Part shown: piece by piece, positions 40,737 to 64,000 of the stretch
Position numbering within the stretch: the first letter of the stretch is position 1
Layout: each line of letters begins with the position of its first letter
Origin: Leucobacter sp. Ag1
Lineage (GTDB): Bacteria > Actinomycetota > Actinomycetes > Actinomycetales > Microbacteriaceae
DNA length: 64,000 nucleotides
Assembly: GCF_000980875.1 (NCBI RefSeq)
Contig: NZ_LAYO01000105.1
Location: 1 to 64,000 of the forward strand
Reading direction: 5' to 3'
Notes under the pieces: model-generated
The model's input: only the letters and a program-made list of their open reading frames with translations
Database searches by the model: none
What the model was told of the DNA's origin: nothing
Position numbers and translations under genes: made by a program

Positions 40737-41933
40737 TCAGCAGTCCGCGGAGAACGTCTGCGAGCGCTCGCACCACCCGGTCCAGTCGCCGAAGTAGAGC
40801 GCCGGCGGGTCGGTGCCCGGCGTCGGGGCCGGTGAAGGTTCGGGTCCGGGCACGGTCGGCGGGCGCTCCGGCGACCGCGGGGACTCGGGGATGCGGCTTT
40901 CGGGCCCGCCTCCGGTCCCGGTGCCGGACGCGGTGCGACCGGCACGATGCGCATCGCGCACCGGGGCCGGTGCCCGATCCGGGGCGTCCCCCGCGGACCG
41001 GTCGACGTCGCTCGTGCTCGACGCGGGTGCGTGCGGCTCGGCCGGGATCGAACCCGGCATCGCGAGGCCGCCGATCGTGCCCGCGGTGGCGAGCACGACG
41101 CCTGCGGCGGAGAGCGCCGCGAGGGTCCCGGTCGCGGTGCGCCTGCGCCAGTCGCGGGTGAGCGCGAGGATCCCCGCGAGGGAGAGCCCGATCGCGCCCG
41201 CTTGCTCCCCGAACAGCACCCACCGCCTGCGGCAGTCCGCGCAGCCGTCGAGGTGGGCCTGAGCCTCCGCTCGGCGCCGGGTGTTCTTCTTGCCCCAGCG
41301 CAGATCCTTGAACCGCCCCACGCTCGTCGCGCAGTCCTCCGGTAGGTTCCGGGTCGGGTGCATGCGCTCGACCCAGCCCTTGCGCAGGCCGTCGCGGGCG
41401 CGTTTGAGCAGCACCGAGGCCGAGTTCGGGGAGAGCTCCAGCTCGCCGGCGACCTCCTGCACGGATCGGCCCTCGACGTCGACGGCGAGTACGATCTGCT
41501 GCCAGCGCGGAGGGAGATCCTGCAGCGCAGCTGCCGCCGCGGCCCGCTGCTCCGCGGACTCGAGGGAGTCATCGTGCGGTTCGAGCGAGGCTCCCTCGAG
41601 TGGCAGATCCTCGAGCGGGGCGCCGCGTTTGCGTGACTCCCAGTGCTGCCCGAGACGCGTCTGCACGGTGCGGAAGAGGTAGGCGCGGAACGATTCCCGC
41701 GGGCCGCCCCCGGCGAGCAGCGCCTGGAACACGGCATCGAATGCCTCGGCGACGGCGTCCTCGGCGACCGCGGGGTCCTTGCGCACGGCCCAGCCGAGCA
41801 CGAGCCCGTGATGTCGCCGCCAGAGCGTCTCGATCGGCCAGGCGCTGCCGGCGCGGATCAGGTCGCAGAGCTCGGAATCGGACGCCTCGTTCGGGCCCGG
41901 ACCGGGGCCGTGCGCCTCGTCCGGAGCCTGCAT
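40737..41933 (-). CDS. ECF sigma factor fused to a zinc-binding membrane anti-sigma-like domain
   Basis: The 398-residue protein has sigma region 2 (about 20-95, IETLWRRHHGLVLGWAVRKD) and region 4 (about 130-190, LQDLPPRWQQIVLAVDVEG, then LELSPNSASVLLKRARDGL). Next come H227-x3-C231-x2-C234, as in zinc anti-sigma factors, a transmembrane helix (about 267-290), and a 108-residue Pro-rich outside tail with two Cys near the end. A frame extending upstream to 42653 lies over the adhesin gene and is rejected. It sits between the surface protein and pilus genes, and probably controls them. Confidence 0.82.
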   Translation of the reverse strand: MQAPDEAHGPGPGPNEASDSELCDLIRAGSAWPIETLWRRHHGLVLGWAVRKDPAVAEDAVAEAFDAVFQALLAGGGPRESFRAYLFRTVQTRLGQHWESRKRGAPLEDLPLEGASLEPHDDSLESAEQRAAAAAALQDLPPRWQQIVLAVDVEGRSVQEVAGELELSPNSASVLLKRARDGLRKGWVERMHPTRNLPEDCATSVGRFKDLRWGKKNTRRRAEAQAHLDGCADCRRRWVLFGEQAGAIGLSLAGILALTRDWRRRTATGTLAALSAAGVVLATAGTIGGLAMPGSIPAEPHAPASSTSDVDRSAGDAPDRAPAPVRDAHRAGRTASGTGTGGGPESRIPESPRSPERPPTVPGPEPSPAPTPGTDPPALYFGDWTGWCERSQTFSADC

Positions 41934-57559: not shown

Positions 57560-58218
57560 GCGTCGATCCTACGCTCCCGCCGTTGCCAGGCGGCTGCCGA
57601 CAGGATCGCGACGGCGGTGCCGAGCAGCGCACCGCCGATGGTGTCCGTGAGCCAGTGCACGTGCAGGGCGGTGCGGCTCCACATCATGAGCAGGACCCAG
57701 AACGCCGCTGCCGCGAAGAGCAGCTTCGCGATCGTCGGCGGCGCGGTGCGCGCCAGGACGATCGCGACGGCGACCGCCAGGGTCGCCGCCGAGAGGGAGT
57801 GGCCCGACGGGTACGAGGATCCGGCCGCGTGGATCAGCATGTCGGCGGGACGCTGGCGTCCGATCAGGAGCTTCAGCAGCTCGGAGGCGGCGACGCCGAC
57901 CACGAGCGCGGTGATCAGGATCCCCGCATCGCGCGGCCGGCGCGCGGCGAAGAGCCCGGCGCAGGCGATGAGTCCGCAGGTGACGACTCCGATCCAGCCG
58001 CCGATGCCGGCGAGGTCGGTCGCGAGGACCGCGGCGAAGCTGCCGCGCTCAGCCCCGATCGCATCGTGCCAGGCCGTGTCGACGGGCGTGGGGTCGCCCC
58101 CGCTGACCAGTAGGTACACGCCGAAGGCGATGACCACCGCGATGGCGAGCCAGGCGCACGCGATCGCGCTGCCGCTGATGCCCCGCGCTCGCGGGCTCCG
58201 TGCCTCGATCATCCCCAC
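57556..58218 (-). CDS. PAP2-family membrane phosphatase
   Basis: The 220-residue protein has six hydrophobic segments and the three phosphatase motifs KLLIGRQRP, YPSGHSLSAA and SRTALHVHWLTD. It would dephosphorylate a lipid phosphate such as undecaprenyl pyrophosphate or phosphatidic acid at the outer face of the membrane. It is the first gene of a four-gene overlapping operon. Confidence 0.9.
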   Translation of the reverse strand: MGMIEARSPRARGISGSAIACAWLAIAVVIAFGVYLLVSGGDPTPVDTAWHDAIGAERGSFAAVLATDLAGIGGWIGVVTCGLIACAGLFAARRPRDAGILITALVVGVAASELLKLLIGRQRPADMLIHAAGSSYPSGHSLSAATLAVAVAIVLARTAPPTIAKLLFAAAAFWVLLMMWSRTALHVHWLTDTIGGALLGTAVAILSAAAWQRRERRIDA

Positions 58219-58308
58219 ACCCTAACGACGCCGGAGCGGCGGATCCTGGGCGGCGGCGCAGAGCCGGTTGGCCCGGTGGCCCGTGGCCTGCGGCCGGCAG
58301 TCGGCCGG

Positions 58309-60297
58309 CTACGCTCCGAGCTCGGCGATCACCGCGTCGGCACGATCGCTCTGCCCGGTCTCGCGCAGCACCTCGATGAGCTCGCCGGCGGCGTGGGCCC
58401 GCTCGTTCGTCAGGCGCGCGACCGCGAAGCCTTCGAAGGCCGACTCCAGCGACCAGACGGCGCCCGTGGTGTCGCCCGCGGAGCGCTGCAGGCGCCCCGC
58501 CAGCCAGAACGCGTGCGCGGCGTCCGAGATCCGGCCGGCCTGGGCGAACTCCTCGCCGGCGCGCTGCGCGGCCGAGACCGCCTCCGCGTGCTCGGGCGCA
58601 TCCGCCCGGGTCGCGGATCCCGTGGCGCCGAGGCTCCGCGCGAGAGTGTCGCGCAGCGTGGCCAGGGTCAGCAGGTGCTCGATCCGGCGGCTCTCGGTGA
58701 GCTCCTCGGTCAACGCGGGCTCGGGGACGTGCTCCTCGGTGCGGGCCAGAGCCGCGCGCAGGCGCGCGACGAGCTCGGCGCAGTCCGCCACCTGCGCCGC
58801 GACGGGGGCCCAGCCGACGAGCACCTGCGCGATCAGCCCGTCCTCGGAGCCGGCGGCTTCCAGACGGGGGATCGCGGCGGCGTAGCGCTCGTGCGCCGCG
58901 CTCGCATCGCCGGCGAGCTCCGCGGCCTTCGCCGCCTCGGCCCAGCAGATCCCGGCGAACTCGAGCCGGCCCTCGGCTTGCGCGAGCGCCGCCGCGAGGG
59001 CGTAGTCGTCGGACGCGGTCAGGTACGCGCGCATGCCGGCCTGGGTCTCGGCGCGGGCGTACGCTTCGTCGGCGTTCGCGGGCTCCGGGCGGGCATCGGC
59101 CGGCAGGTCGTCGGTGTCCGGCCGGGTCGGATCCCCGGCATCGCCGTCGACCTCGGTCGTGGCATCGGACGGAGCGTCGGAGTCCCCGTCGGATGCCTCA
59201 GGAGAGGGGTCGCCGAGGCGGCCGAGCAGCAGCTCGTGCTCCGCGCGCCGGCTGGCGAGGGCCCGGGCGACCTGGTCGGCGTAGTAGCCGGTGCCGTTGC
59301 GGCGGTCGAACTGCGCCGCGAGCGCCTCGGTCTCGGCACGCACCCACGTGTGGAGCTCACCGAGGGTCGGGGCGGCGGGGGTGCTGAGACCCGTGGGCAG
59401 CTCGCTCCGGTCGAGGTTCGCGGAGAGCCCCGAGAGGACCCCGAGCAGGAACCGGAGCCGGAAGAGCGGGGTGGATGCATCGAGCAGCAGGCGGCCCGTG
59501 TCGGTGCGCAGCTGCTGCAGCGCCCGATCGAGCGCGCCGCCGATGGCGAGGAGCTCGAATGCCTGACCGTGGGCGGGGGCGAAATCGCTGCCCTCGGCGC
59601 TCGAGTACGTGGCGACCGCCCTGCGGTAGCTGCGGGTGGCGAGCTCGGCGTCGCCCGCGCGCAGCGCTGCGAGGGCCAGCGCGTGCATGGTGCGGGTGGG
59701 CTCGAGATTGCAGGTGCCGGTCGAGGTCCGACCGATCGCCACGGCCTCCTCGTAGCGGCCGAGCTCGGTGAAGTAGTCGGTCTGCTGGCCCACGGTGCAG
59801 GTCGCGCAGTCCTCGAGCTCGTCGCGGTCGCCCGTGATCCAGTCGATGCGCGCTCGCTCCATGTCGGCGCTGCCGGTGTGCCAGGCCCAGCGGAAGCGCG
59901 ACATGCGGACCGAGGATCCGCCCTTGCCCGCGACCGCGAAGCGGTGGGCCATATCGGCGAGGAACGCGTCGGCCTGCTCGGCCGTGATCTCGGGGTAGTC
60001 GGGCAGGTCGCCCGCGATCCACTTGAACTCCCAGAACAGGTTGCGCTCGTCGGCCTCGTCGAACAGTTCGGGGCGGGAGTCCCAGAGGCGGAGCGTACGG
60101 GCGAAGGCGACGAAACCCTGCTTGCCCAGGTTCGCGAAGGTGTAGGCCTCGACGAGGTCGAGCAGAGCCTGGGGCAGCTGGCGCTCGGGGCCGTCGGTCT
60201 CGAGTCGGCGGACCAGGGCCTCGGTGGCCGAGGTGCGGGCGACGCCGTAGGGGAGACGTCGGAGGGTGCGGAGTTCGTGGTCGATGTCCTTGGCCAA
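58309..60297 (-). CDS. TPR-like helical protein of unknown function, partner of the Hsp90-family gene
   Basis: The 662-residue protein is almost wholly helical, with TPR-like units (GRYEEAVAIGRTSTG; LAALRAGDAELATRSYRRAV; GRISDAAHAFWLAGRLQ). An acidic Asp/Pro/Thr linker at about residues 365-410 divides two helical halves. No catalytic motif is seen. The TTG at 60297 follows GAAAGGAACTCCG, 25 bp after the Hsp90-family gene. In eukaryotes TPR proteins are Hsp90 co-chaperones; a similar partnership here is inference. Confidence 0.75.
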   Translation of the reverse strand: MAKDIDHELRTLRRLPYGVARTSATEALVRRLETDGPERQLPQALLDLVEAYTFANLGKQGFVAFARTLRLWDSRPELFDEADERNLFWEFKWIAGDLPDYPEITAEQADAFLADMAHRFAVAGKGGSSVRMSRFRWAWHTGSADMERARIDWITGDRDELEDCATCTVGQQTDYFTELGRYEEAVAIGRTSTGTCNLEPTRTMHALALAALRAGDAELATRSYRRAVATYSSAEGSDFAPAHGQAFELLAIGGALDRALQQLRTDTGRLLLDASTPLFRLRFLLGVLSGLSANLDRSELPTGLSTPAAPTLGELHTWVRAETEALAAQFDRRNGTGYYADQVARALASRRAEHELLLGRLGDPSPEASDGDSDAPSDATTEVDGDAGDPTRPDTDDLPADARPEPANADEAYARAETQAGMRAYLTASDDYALAAALAQAEGRLEFAGICWAEAAKAAELAGDASAAHERYAAAIPRLEAAGSEDGLIAQVLVGWAPVAAQVADCAELVARLRAALARTEEHVPEPALTEELTESRRIEHLLTLATLRDTLARSLGATGSATRADAPEHAEAVSAAQRAGEEFAQAGRISDAAHAFWLAGRLQRSAGDTTGAVWSLESAFEGFAVARLTNERAHAAGELIEVLRETGQSDRADAVIAELGA

Positions 60298-60322
60298 CGG
60301 AGTTCCTTTCTCGGGTGCCCGG

Positions 60323-62149
60323 TCAGGCGGTGTCGGGATCGTCGCCGAGCGACGCGTCGAGCAGCACGCTCAGCGCGTCGCCGAGGGCGACGGCTTCGGC
60401 CGAGTGCAGGTCGTCACCGGCCAGCATCACCGCCGAGAGGTAGAGGGAGTTGAGCCCGGCGTCGAACACGCCGCCGGCCGGGGCCGCGAGGAGCCTGCGG
60501 ACCACCGCGGAGTCGTCGTTGAGCACGAGGGTGCGCGTGCGGGCGCTGACCTCGGGGTCGGAGAACGCGTCGAGGAGACCGCTCCAGAGCCCGGGGGCCG
60601 CCGAGCGCTCGCGGTCGAGGTCGCGGCGCTGCTCGCCCGCGGAATCGCGGAGGAGCATCGCGGGAACGGCCGACGGCTCGAAGCTGCGCACGATGACGTC
60701 GCAGTCGGCGCTCTCGAGCAGCTCCCGCGAACGGGCGACGGCGTCGGCGACCTCGAGCTCGCGCTCGAGATCGGGTACGCGGAGCACGTGCACGAGATCG
60801 GCGTTCGAGAGCTCGCGCACCTTCCAGCCGGGCCGCGCGGCCAGCTGCTGAAGCAGGTCGAGATCGTAGACGTAGCCGGCGTTGACCACCACGAGCCCCT
60901 GAGCGCGGGCGACGGTGGCGACGCGCCGGAACGACTCGGTGGTGGTCGAATAGACGACCTCGCCGCGCTCGGCGACCTGGGCGAGCGTGAGGGGGCCGTC
61001 GGTGGTCTCGAAGGGGAGGACGCGGGCGACGAGCTCGAGCATGTCGGGTTCGGTGACCGCGAGCGCGCGCAGCGCGAGGTGATGGGTGCGGATGAAGTCG
61101 GCGGCGAGCCGCGATCCACTGGTCAGCGTGCGCGCGGCCCAGGCGATGATCTGGGCGCCGAGCGCTTCGCGGGCGGCCTGGAGCACCTCGTCGTCGTGCA
61201 GCTGCTCGCGCGACGCCGTCGGCGAGAGCCCCTCGGCGTCGATGACCGCACGCGTGAAGAACGCCCAGTCGGGCAGGATCCGGTCGACGCGCGAACCGAG
61301 GAGCATGCGCTTCGTGTAGACCCGGTGCTGGCCGCTGCCGGGGGACACCGCCTGCGGCAGGATGAAGGCGACGCCGCTGATGCCGGCGACCGGCAGGTCG
61401 AGGTCGATGCGACCGAGCGGCGTGAACCCGAAGAGCGACTCGCAGGCCCGATCCAGCGCGCGCTCGCGCTCGCCGGGCACGGGGTACTCCGCGCGCCAGG
61501 GCAGCTCGGGTGCGGTGATCCGCTGCCAGAGCGGGCCGACGCCCTCGACCGGCACCTCGACCGCGACGTCGAACGGCAGGAACCCGCCGTATTCGGTCGC
61601 CAGGTCGACGACGGTGCGGTTCGCGAGCCAGTGCCGGGTATCGCTGCGTGCGGTCAAGCGCACCGCGGTGCCGACCTCGACCTCCTCGCCGCCCAGCTCC
61701 TCGACGTCGAAGGTCCCGTCGGCCCGGCCGGTCCACCGGATCGGCACGGCGCCGGGCCGTGCCGATCGCGAGCGGACCTCGATCTCGTCGGCCACCATGA
61801 ACGCCGCGAGCATGCCGATGCCGAACTGTCCGATGAACTCCGAACGGCCGAGCCCCAGGTCCGCGTCGCGCTTCGAGGACCGGCCGATGGTCGCGAGCAG
61901 CTCCGCGGCTTCTGCCGCGGTCAGCCCGATGCCGGTGTCGACGACGCTGAGCGTCGCCCGGCCGTCCGGGTCGGTGCCGGTCGTGATCCGGACCGTCGCC
62001 GGAGCGGACGGATCGAGCTCGCGCCGTGCGGTGAGCGCGTCGACGGCGTTCTGCAGCAGTTCGCGCACGAAGACCTGCGGTCCCGAGTACAGGTGGCGGG
62101 ACAGCAGGTCGACCATGCCGGTGAGGTCGACCTGGAAGCGTTCGGACAT
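60323..62149 (-). CDS. Hsp90-family (HtpG-like) ATPase
   Basis: The 608-residue protein has the GHKL ATPase motifs of Hsp90: FVRELLQNAVDALTAR with the catalytic Glu and Asn, SVVDTGIGL, and FIGQFGIGMLAAF (lid). A middle domain follows (VYTKRMLLGS, then LSPTASREQL in place of the usual LNxSRE). The sequence is divergent from housekeeping HtpG, with a reduced C-terminal domain and no MEEVD-type tail (it ends DDPDTA). It would use ATP to remodel client proteins. It is flanked by YbjN and TPR-like genes in one operon. Confidence 0.88.
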   Translation of the reverse strand: MSERFQVDLTGMVDLLSRHLYSGPQVFVRELLQNAVDALTARRELDPSAPATVRITTGTDPDGRATLSVVDTGIGLTAAEAAELLATIGRSSKRDADLGLGRSEFIGQFGIGMLAAFMVADEIEVRSRSARPGAVPIRWTGRADGTFDVEELGGEEVEVGTAVRLTARSDTRHWLANRTVVDLATEYGGFLPFDVAVEVPVEGVGPLWQRITAPELPWRAEYPVPGERERALDRACESLFGFTPLGRIDLDLPVAGISGVAFILPQAVSPGSGQHRVYTKRMLLGSRVDRILPDWAFFTRAVIDAEGLSPTASREQLHDDEVLQAAREALGAQIIAWAARTLTSGSRLAADFIRTHHLALRALAVTEPDMLELVARVLPFETTDGPLTLAQVAERGEVVYSTTTESFRRVATVARAQGLVVVNAGYVYDLDLLQQLAARPGWKVRELSNADLVHVLRVPDLERELEVADAVARSRELLESADCDVIVRSFEPSAVPAMLLRDSAGEQRRDLDRERSAAPGLWSGLLDAFSDPEVSARTRTLVLNDDSAVVRRLLAAPAGGVFDAGLNSLYLSAVMLAGDDLHSAEAVALGDALSVLLDASLGDDPDTA

Positions 62150-62201
62150 GCGGTCTTTCTGAGAGGAGAGCTGAGCGGTCGGGGGAGGCTCTGGCGCTCG
62201 C

Positions 62202-62693
62202 CTACTCGGCGCTGCGTGCGGCGACCGCCGCCGCTGCCTCGGGGAACTGCTCGTTGAGCGACTCGAAGAAGGCGCCGCCCGTGTTGATCACGCAGAGCAG
62301 GTGCTGCGTCAGCTGCTCGTCGGTGAGGCCGTGCTCGTAATCGACGTTGAGCTCGCAGTGCACGCGCACCTTGCCCTCGTCGTCGGGGCGGGCGTAGGTC
62401 TTCGGCCAGAGCTTCTCGGTGTTCCAGGTGTTGCAGGCCACGAGCGCGCGCTCGAACTCGGCCTGGCTGAGCTCGCCGTACCAGGTGCCGCGCACGCAGA
62501 AGAGCTCCTGCTTCTCGCCGTTCACGAAGAAGTAGAAGAAGCCGTTCTCCCAGCCGCCTCCGATGTCTCCGTCGGAATCGACCCGGTACTGCCAGCCGGC
62601 GTTCTCGAGGGCGTGCTTGACGCGGTCCTTGGAGAGCGGAGCGAGCGCTCCGCCGCCGGCGGCGGGGGTCTGTTCCTTGGTGAAGAAGCCCAT
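62202..62693 (-). CDS. YbjN-domain protein
   Basis: The 163-residue protein has the YbjN fold pattern ([54 protein letters not shown]). The fold is shared with type III secretion chaperones, and YbjN members are thought to aid protein stability; the molecular role is unproven. AAAGGATCTCCC precedes the ATG at 62693. It is the first gene of the YbjN/Hsp90/TPR set. Confidence 0.85.
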
Positions 62694-62812
62694 GGGAGAT
62701 CCTTTCGGTCGGTGGTGCGCCGAAGGGGGAACGGCGTCGGATTCAGCGTATGCGATCCGACCGACATCCGAGGCGGCCGATTTGCTCCCGATGAGGCGCA
62801 CAAAAACAGTGC

Positions 62813-62841
62813 TGGACAGGCGCGTGCATATCGGTTAGAGT
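62813..62841 (+). promoter_or_regulatory. Promoter of rpoB
   Basis: TGGACA (62813-62818) and TAGAGT (62836-62841) are spaced by 17 bp, a strong housekeeping-sigma pair. Transcription would begin near 62848, leaving a 137-nt leader to the rpoB start. No other gene lies between. Confidence 0.72.
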
Positions 62842-62984
62842 CGATAGTTGCACTTCGGACACTAGTCTGCCTTCATATAGCGGTTGGCCGTCAGCTCCAG
62901 TTCGAGCGCCTCACCGCGTGTTCCGAAGCGACTCACACTGAGACCTGGTCAACCGGCCCGACGGGGCCCACGGAGGTAGTTTCC

Positions 62985-64000
62985 TTGGCTGCTGCGCGCA
63001 ACGCAACTTCCACGCCCACTCCGAAGAACGGTCGCGATCACTCGCGACTGTCCTTCGCCAAGATTTCCGACACGCTGTCGATGCCGAACCTGCTGGCACT
63101 GCAGCTCGAGAGCTTCGACTGGCTCGTCGGCAACGACGCGTGGAAGACGCGCGTCGTCGAGGCACAGTCCGAAGGGCGCGACGACATCGCGCTGAAGAGC
63201 GGCCTCGAAGAGATCTTCGACGAGATCTCGCCCATCGAGGACAACGCCGGCACCATGCAGCTGTCGTTCGAGAACCCGATCCTCGACGAGCAGAAGTTCT
63301 CGATCGAGGAGTGCAAGGAGCGGGGCAAGACCTACTCCGCGCCCCTCTACGTCGAGGCGGCGTTCTACAACACCGAGACTCAGGTGCTGAAGAGCCAGAC
63401 GGTCTACATGGGCGACTTCCCCATCATGACCGACAAGGGCACCTTCATCATCAACGGCACCGAGCGCGTCATCGTCTCGCAGCTCGTCCGCAGCCCCGGC
63501 GTCTACTTCGAGCGCGCCCAGGAGAAGACCTCCGATAAGGACGTCTTCACCGCTCGCGTGATCCCCAGCCGCGGTGCGTGGCTCGAGTTCGAGGTCGACA
63601 AGCGCGATCAGGTCGGTGTCCGCATCGACCGCAAGCGCAAGCAGTCGGTCACCGTGTTCCTCAAGGCGCTCGGCATGACGAGCGAGGAGATCCTCGAGGA
63701 GTTCGCCGGCTACGAGTCGATCGCGCTCACCCTCGAGAAGGACGGCATCCTCACGCAGGAGGAAGCGCTCAAGGACATCTACCGCAAGCAGCGTCCGGGC
63801 GAGCAGGTGGCCATCGAGGCCGCGCGCGCTCTGCTCGACAACAGCTACTTCAACCCGAAGCGCTACGACCTCGCGAAGGTCGGCCGCTACAAGATCAACC
63901 GCAAGCTCGGCATCGATGCGCCCATCACCGATTCGGTGCTGTCGCTCGAGGACATCGTCGCGACCATCAAGTACCTGGTCGGCCTGCACGCGGGCACCGA
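62985..64000 (+). CDS. rpoB: RNA polymerase beta subunit (N-terminal part; runs off the window)
   Basis: The frame from TTG at 62985, with ACGGAGGTAG upstream, encodes the RpoB N-terminus: [32 protein letters not shown], then [25 protein letters not shown] as the pattern of the beta1 lobe. About 338 residues are seen before the window ends, so the rifampicin region is outside. It is the core transcription enzyme subunit. No ribosomal protein genes lie directly upstream. Confidence 0.97.

Follow-up and report, generated by a model that had tools for sequence, protein, structure and literature searches.

Genetic linkage of a divergent bacterial Hsp90 to a TPR-solenoid gene, with a YbjN gene as the usual third member among its nearest relatives

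Introduction

Does a bacterial Hsp90 have a dedicated partner protein? The usual view is that Hsp90 of bacteria does without one. The question is raised by a locus of Leucobacter sp. Ag1 (contig NZ_LAYO01000105.1), in which genes for a YbjN protein, an Hsp90-family ATPase and a TPR-like helical protein lie in a row. The original prediction, which was based on gene order, was that the three proteins act together as an Hsp90-co-chaperone system. The analysis of the first 64,000 nucleotides of this contig (referred to as the window) and of related loci carries the link between Hsp90 and the TPR protein well beyond gene order, whereas YbjN follows only in part. Across large distances, a divergent Hsp90 lineage that retains all ATPase residues is linked genetically to a gene for a TPR solenoid; in the closest relatives, a YbjN gene usually accompanies the Hsp90-TPR pair.

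The ybjN-hsp90-tpr unit and its upstream region

The genome of Leucobacter sp. Ag1 comprises 3.54 Mb in 111 contigs and is 99.9% complete. The open reading frames of the three minus-strand genes and their tight order, with gaps of 52 bp between ybjN and hsp90 and 25 bp between hsp90 and tpr, were confirmed, as was the YbjN identity of the first gene product (Table 1). For ybjN, an alternative earlier in-frame start is possible at 62801. The unit is divergent from rpoB, and the next minus-strand gene after it encodes a PAP2-family phosphatase. The nearest named relative at this locus, among the best 80 of 246 relatives, is Leucobacter sp. OLIS6, whose Hsp90 is 98% identical.

Table 1. Features of the three-gene unit and its upstream region (window coordinates).
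Feature	Position	Strand	Description
ybjN	62202..62693	minus	163 aa; first gene of the unit; PF10722 82 bits, cut-off 22
hsp90	60323..62149	minus	608 aa; PRK14083-type divergent Hsp90; NF010683 688 bits, cut-off 455
tpr	58309..60297	minus	662 aa, TTG start; two helical solenoids and a linker; TPR-like by fold
ybjN-rpoB intergenic region	62694..62985		presumed promoter site of the unit, by position only

No minus-strand sigma-70-like promoter was detected in 58200-63000. Heat-shock control of the unit was considered and rejected, as no HAIR or CIRCE operator was found at the module: with up to three mismatches, the HAIR pattern has a single site in the whole window, at 41595, and none in the intergenic region, and the CIRCE pattern has none in the window. 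The gene pairs PA1068/PA1069 and lmo0942/lmo0941 are presumably orthologues of the hsp90-tpr pair. In the accessible part of PMC4957987, a table lists PA1069 among genes with lower levels in heat-treated cells, which would argue against heat induction if PA1069 is the partner gene; the "PA1068" that appears in the excerpt of PMC9995270 is a strain name.

The Hsp90 protein

The Hsp90 protein exceeds the curated cut-off of NF010683/PRK14083 (Table 1) and stays below that of the HtpG equivalog NF003555 (167 bits, cut-off 371); judged by these profile scores, it is a PRK14083 protein and not a canonical HtpG. It also matches PF13589 with 33 bits (cut-off 25). The residues E30, N34, D37, D71, G75, G110 and R314 are identical in 68 of 68 aligned relatives, in agreement with the predicted Hsp90-family ATPase with intact GHKL motifs. 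We take these residues to have the ATPase roles of their counterparts in known Hsp90s, R314 being the catalytic arginine of the middle domain.

The C-terminus had been described as reduced, which proved incorrect: it is divergent. The AlphaFold2 model of the 608 residues (mean pLDDT 88.0) matches full-length Hsp90s, including TRAP1, Hsc82 and human Hsp90, over 626-674 alignment columns (TM 0.59-0.68, rmsd 6.9-10.2, among the 50 matches listed), and the aligned relatives are conserved up to about residue 600. By predicted fold only, the protein would thus possess N-terminal, middle and C-terminal domains. Sequence searches lose the alignment after about residue 386-406, which probably explains why the C-terminus had seemed reduced. 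The tail itself is variable, with a block conservation of 0.28 past residue 600; the window protein ends in DDPDTA. An interaction of the MEEVD-clamp type was rejected, as no conserved MEEVD-like tail is present on Hsp90 (68 aligned relatives, of which 23 rows were listed).

Searches with the protein and with NF010683 found a single genomic place for Hsp90. Since NF010683 also detects HtpG-like proteins in other genomes, a separate htpG is probably absent from this genome; the check for a housekeeping htpG that had been proposed thus revealed no second Hsp90.

The TPR protein

The AlphaFold2 model of the 662-aa protein is all-helical (mean pLDDT 92.2) and consists of helices spanning residues 2-347 and 409-661, which are connected by a linker of low confidence. 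By predicted fold, it is an antiparallel helical-repeat solenoid of TPR type, which bears out the description as a TPR-like helical protein, with the qualification that its Pfam TPR matches stay below the curated cut-offs (best PF13424, 15.2 bits versus 30.1). The fold of the C-terminal solenoid is nearest to LGN; Rap and kinesin light chain rank lower. The N-terminal solenoid is better conserved than the C-terminal one, and the cysteines C164, C167 and C196 are conserved in 63/63, 62/63 and 63/63 relatives, respectively; the CxxC motif is missing from the four divergent TPR partners that were checked. Domain-profile searches recognised no catalytic or output domain in the window protein.

Pairing of Hsp90 and TPR genes in actinobacteria

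Among the named relatives, that is, the best 80 of 246 Hsp90 relatives in genome contigs, the TPR gene directly follows the Hsp90 gene on the same strand in 79 loci; in the remaining one (L096), the contig ends after the Hsp90 gene. As determined by script, the Hsp90 stop and the TPR start share 4 nt in 41 of the 79 loci; there is an overlap of any length in 62, and the two lie within 100 nt in 77, one of the two loci beyond 100 nt (L068) being a case of a wrong frame in the script.

In the genus Leucobacter, both genes are present in 24 of 54 genomes and both are absent from 30. The Hsp90 cut-off is passed by 23 genomes, all of which also match the TPR profile, as does G307, which has both genes as frameshifted pieces and was counted as a carrier; G329, counted among the genomes with neither, contains a 414-aa Hsp90-like piece at a contig end, which scores like the HtpG controls.

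Of 299 Microbacteriaceae genomes, 40 pass the Hsp90 cut-off, and a TPR-profile match adjoins in 35 of them. The other five carriers (six loci, L144-L149) have a gene of 738-745 aa that abuts the Hsp90 gene, downstream in two loci and upstream in four; three of these six partner genes match the TPR profile A2 weakly (19.6-23.5 bits), and the remaining ones were assigned by size, place and similar N-termini. Four of these loci (L144-L147) belong to a divergent Hsp90 subgroup, in which the partner-like gene, of 744-745 aa, lies directly upstream and not downstream. In a sample of 296 genomes of the phylum, 10 pass the Hsp90 cut-off and all 10 have a TPR partner. No TPR match of at least 70 bits was found in the 259 Microbacteriaceae non-carriers, and among the 286 non-carriers of the phylum sample two have a match above 100 bits (G171 and G204) and two a weak one; these negatives are weaker than those for Leucobacter, since only the four best first-look candidates were scored in most genomes, compared with up to 22 in the Leucobacter search. 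TPR homologues in the absence of a PRK14083 Hsp90 are thus known from G171 and G204, and also from Actinomyces oris; additional, non-adjacent TPR copies are present in G443, G551 and G628.

The A2 profile matches none of 20 HtpG-like control loci (L012-L031, flanks up to 1.5 kb). In 28 loci chosen for diversity, the recurring families are Hsp90 (28), TPR (28) and YbjN (18); no other genuine gene family is found in more than 4 of the 28, and the other large clusters are antisense or out-of-frame open reading frames of the three genes. Four of the genuine neighbour families shared between loci, for instance IPP transferase, come from related Cellulomonas-like genera. No client gene fixed beside the module was found in the survey of neighbour families and the flank scan.

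YbjN joins the pair in part of the actinobacteria

The product of ybjN is the sole YbjN of the host genome. In the 80 named loci (the best 80 of 246), a YbjN gene immediately precedes the pair in the same orientation in 63 and immediately follows tpr in 14, and three yielded none (L070, L109 and L096, the last of which ends at a contig edge); these counts are by domain position, and L082, with TPR and YbjN in one open frame, was assigned to the downstream group by hand. In Leucobacter, YbjN adjoins the pair in all 24 carriers, and 8 of the 30 non-carriers possess it as well. The flanks retrieved for 11 Streptomyces-type and related loci (L112-L122), for six Microbacteriaceae loci with a long TPR gene (L155-L160) and for the pairs outside the actinobacteria yielded no YbjN. 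The test of co-conservation, which could have refuted the original prediction, was passed by Hsp90 and TPR: each of the 54 Leucobacter genomes has either both genes or neither, and the pair stays together at changing sites. YbjN is more loosely associated, as it occurs without the pair and is missing beside many pairs.

A clear TPR-YbjN fusion is found in G204 (L150, 5465-7542), a genome without a PRK14083 Hsp90, where ybjN is followed by a 550-aa open reading frame that joins a TPR N-domain to YbjN. A Propionibacteriaceae MAG (L082, 7805-10696) provides a possible second case, a 963-aa open frame in which TPR runs on into YbjN; as the start motif typical of YbjN is retained within this frame and the sequence is metagenome-assembled, the fusion may be an assembly artefact. 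Taken together, YbjN seems to go with the TPR protein, in some of the actinobacteria.

Several arrangements of these genes deviate from the common order. In Corynebacterium stercoris (L108, 3016-9691), the order is ybjN-tpr-ybjN-hsp90-tpr, and an Actinomyces oris plasmid (L130, 6145-10895) carries two YbjN-like genes followed by a gene for a 1011-aa TPR homologue, with no Hsp90 in the fetched stretch. Many Cellulomonas-type loci (L058-L067, L073-L075, L079, L086, L090, L094 and L111) possess an additional two YbjN genes, which are transcribed away from the module, and in Oerskovia and Cellulosimicrobium two YbjN genes lie about 1 kb downstream of it.

Changing sites and occurrence in other phyla

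The flanking genes of the named Leucobacter-group loci form several unrelated sets. Of the 23 other Leucobacter carriers, 21 were searched for a homologue of the PAP2 gene; all of these have one, but it adjoins the module only in G327. For all three genes, Micropruina is nearest to the window, and two Rhodococcus loci group with Leucobacter; for the latter, the nearest species differs for YbjN, and contamination of the assemblies is possible. The distances among the three proteins correlate (r of 0.93, 0.90 and 0.92; 61 loci), for the most part as a result of common descent.

Loci outside the actinobacteria were taken from the best matches in plasmid and phage collections, some records of which look chromosomal, and do not represent a systematic survey. 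In Listeria, the Hsp90 gene is followed by genes for two TPR proteins, 324 and 320 aa long (A2 132 and 124 bits), Paenibacillus has a partner of 353 aa (122 bits), and a taxonomically unassigned fecal clone has a partner at 155 bits. The partners of Pseudomonas aeruginosa, Xanthomonas vasicola and Salmonella Infantis comprise 764-774 aa, have Pfam TPR matches below the cut-off and possess no profile similarity to the actinobacterial ones. By profile, the Listeria and Paenibacillus partners are homologous to those of actinobacteria, and the gamma-proteobacterial ones are other TPR partners. In a tree, 38 Hsp90s of this lineage are split from 20 HtpG-like proteins with 100/100 support, with long-branch warnings.

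Salmonella Infantis SARB27 and some E. coli strains hold an unnamed Hsp90-like and TPR pair (L131, 5962-10109; L162, 9962-14105; L163, 9962-14106). A related pair with 77% identity to that of Salmonella is found in 245 of 5426 complete E. coli genomes. The pair lies next to fdhD in all three records viewed, and in the two E. coli records between fdhD and yiiG, the TPR gene being annotated as frameshifted in SCU-115. In Pseudanabaena, a clear TPR protein is encoded by the second gene downstream of Hsp90; the Hsp90 open reading frame, of 877 aa, is located on a plasmid (L128, 7213-16076) among TIR, TPR, vWA and AAA genes, a setting that looks like a conflict system, and has a weak C-terminal TIR match below the cut-off (PF10137, 19.5 bits, cut-off 24.7).

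Possible function and alternative explanations

The pattern of occurrence strongly suggests a functional linkage of Hsp90 and the TPR protein, from which we infer contact, activity and clients. We consider it fairly probable that the locus encodes an Hsp90 machine that has a TPR protein as its dedicated adaptor or co-chaperone, with the small YbjN chaperone as a further member in part of the actinobacteria. In such a machine, the TPR protein would bind the Hsp90 dimer; its N-terminal solenoid, with the three cysteines as a putative zinc or redox site, may dock on Hsp90 or YbjN, and the C-terminal solenoid may catch client segments. In Leucobacter sp. Ag1, the module would be the sole Hsp90 system. 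The wider proposal, for which we see even chances, is an ancient, undescribed machine in at least four phyla, in which a paralogous Hsp90 works only with its own TPR co-chaperone and YbjN joins in part of the actinobacteria.

Gene order in a single genome would also allow unrelated genes to be held together by operon inertia. We regard this as very improbable: the two genes co-occur in every Leucobacter genome that has either, lie at differing sites and are paired in other phyla, and the probability of the 24/30 distribution arising by chance is 7e-16 assuming independent genomes, which they are not. Another way to read the strict pairing of one Hsp90 with one protein is as a private chaperone-client pair, with the TPR protein as a dedicated client or regulated protein of Hsp90 instead of its co-chaperone, and the existence of TPR homologues without this Hsp90 is in line with that. 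However, a protein without a recognised catalytic or output domain, and with a fold of the protein-binding TPR scaffold type, makes such a role unlikely.

The patchy distribution and the changing chromosomal sites would also fit a biological-conflict (defence) module, in which Hsp90 would set the threshold of an effector and the TPR protein would act as sensor or scaffold; YbjN would bind peptides as a chaperone, similar to the TY-chaperones of conflict systems. The Pseudanabaena locus, with its weak TIR match and its neighbours, points in this direction, as do YbjN-like chaperones, which are known from conflict systems according to the accessible text of PMC9503650. However, no effector was seen in the actinobacterial modules, and PADLOC gave no matches for the window TPR and YbjN proteins and weak ones for the window Hsp90, which cover only the GHKL part of the TmtA and type II restriction-enzyme models. 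The flanks of 32 loci contain mostly metabolic and housekeeping genes; their few PADLOC matches (mad2-like, 3; mad3-like, 1; mad8-like, 1; one methyltransferase; among the families listed, 25 of 34) stem from a scan of 124 open reading frames, a few of them inside the module itself, and are counts without a background rate from random loci, on which basis the scan gave no clear sign of a defence island around the actinobacterial loci. The constant site of the E. coli/Salmonella pair beside fdhD also speaks against defence, which we therefore judge to be improbable as well. If the preferred reading of an Hsp90 with a TPR co-chaperone is correct, Hsp90-TPR cooperation would become testable in a small bacterial system, as a related pair exists in E. 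coli.

Comparison with known systems

The components belong to known families; their combination was not found in print, and no published bacterial Hsp90-TPR or Hsp90-YbjN module was recognised in the open-licence PMC literature. The window Hsp90 is a member of the NCBIfam "HSP90 family protein" NF010683/PRK14083 by score and is probably the bacterial hsp90C or HTPG Group C paralogue (Chen 2006), a grouping that we infer. According to the available sections of PMC1525184, HTPG Group C is represented in Actinobacteria, and the two HTPG copies of S. coelicolor each belong to a different group. A survey of bacterial Hsp90s leaves out hsp90B and hsp90C and states that no obligate bacterial Hsp90 co-chaperone is known (PMC3708813, in part); a TPR partner of hsp90C or Group C is not mentioned in the accessible portions of these two papers. 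A dedicated partner across phyla would change the statement on co-chaperones for one Hsp90 lineage.

Canonical HtpG shares the family and the domain order with the window Hsp90; however, the latter scores far below the HtpG cut-off and falls on the separate branch described above, long-branch warnings included, and the HtpG-like control loci lack a TPR partner. The product of ybjN shares the PF10722 domain with E. coli YbjN, AmyR and DR1245. E. coli YbjN stabilises unstable proteins (PMC3575483, excerpt), whereas an association with Hsp90 or TPR proteins is not mentioned in the parts of the YbjN literature that were available (PMC3575483, PMC5398634). In the MoxR-vWA ternary conflict systems, a chaperone ATPase likewise has its own partner gene, chaperone and co-chaperone serving as a threshold switch (PMC7159879, in part); their ATPase, however, is a different one, and Hsp90 and YbjN are absent from the main text of that paper as far as it was accessible. 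In eukaryotes, Hsp90 is paired with TPR-fold proteins such as Hop/Sti1, FKBPs and PP5, which is the likeness to the module described here; in contrast, the bacterial Hsp90 possesses no conserved MEEVD-like tail, and LGN is the closest match of the C-terminal solenoid of its partner. If it exists in at least four phyla, the machine would parallel the eukaryotic system of Hsp90 and TPR co-chaperones, independently of it and without MEEVD.
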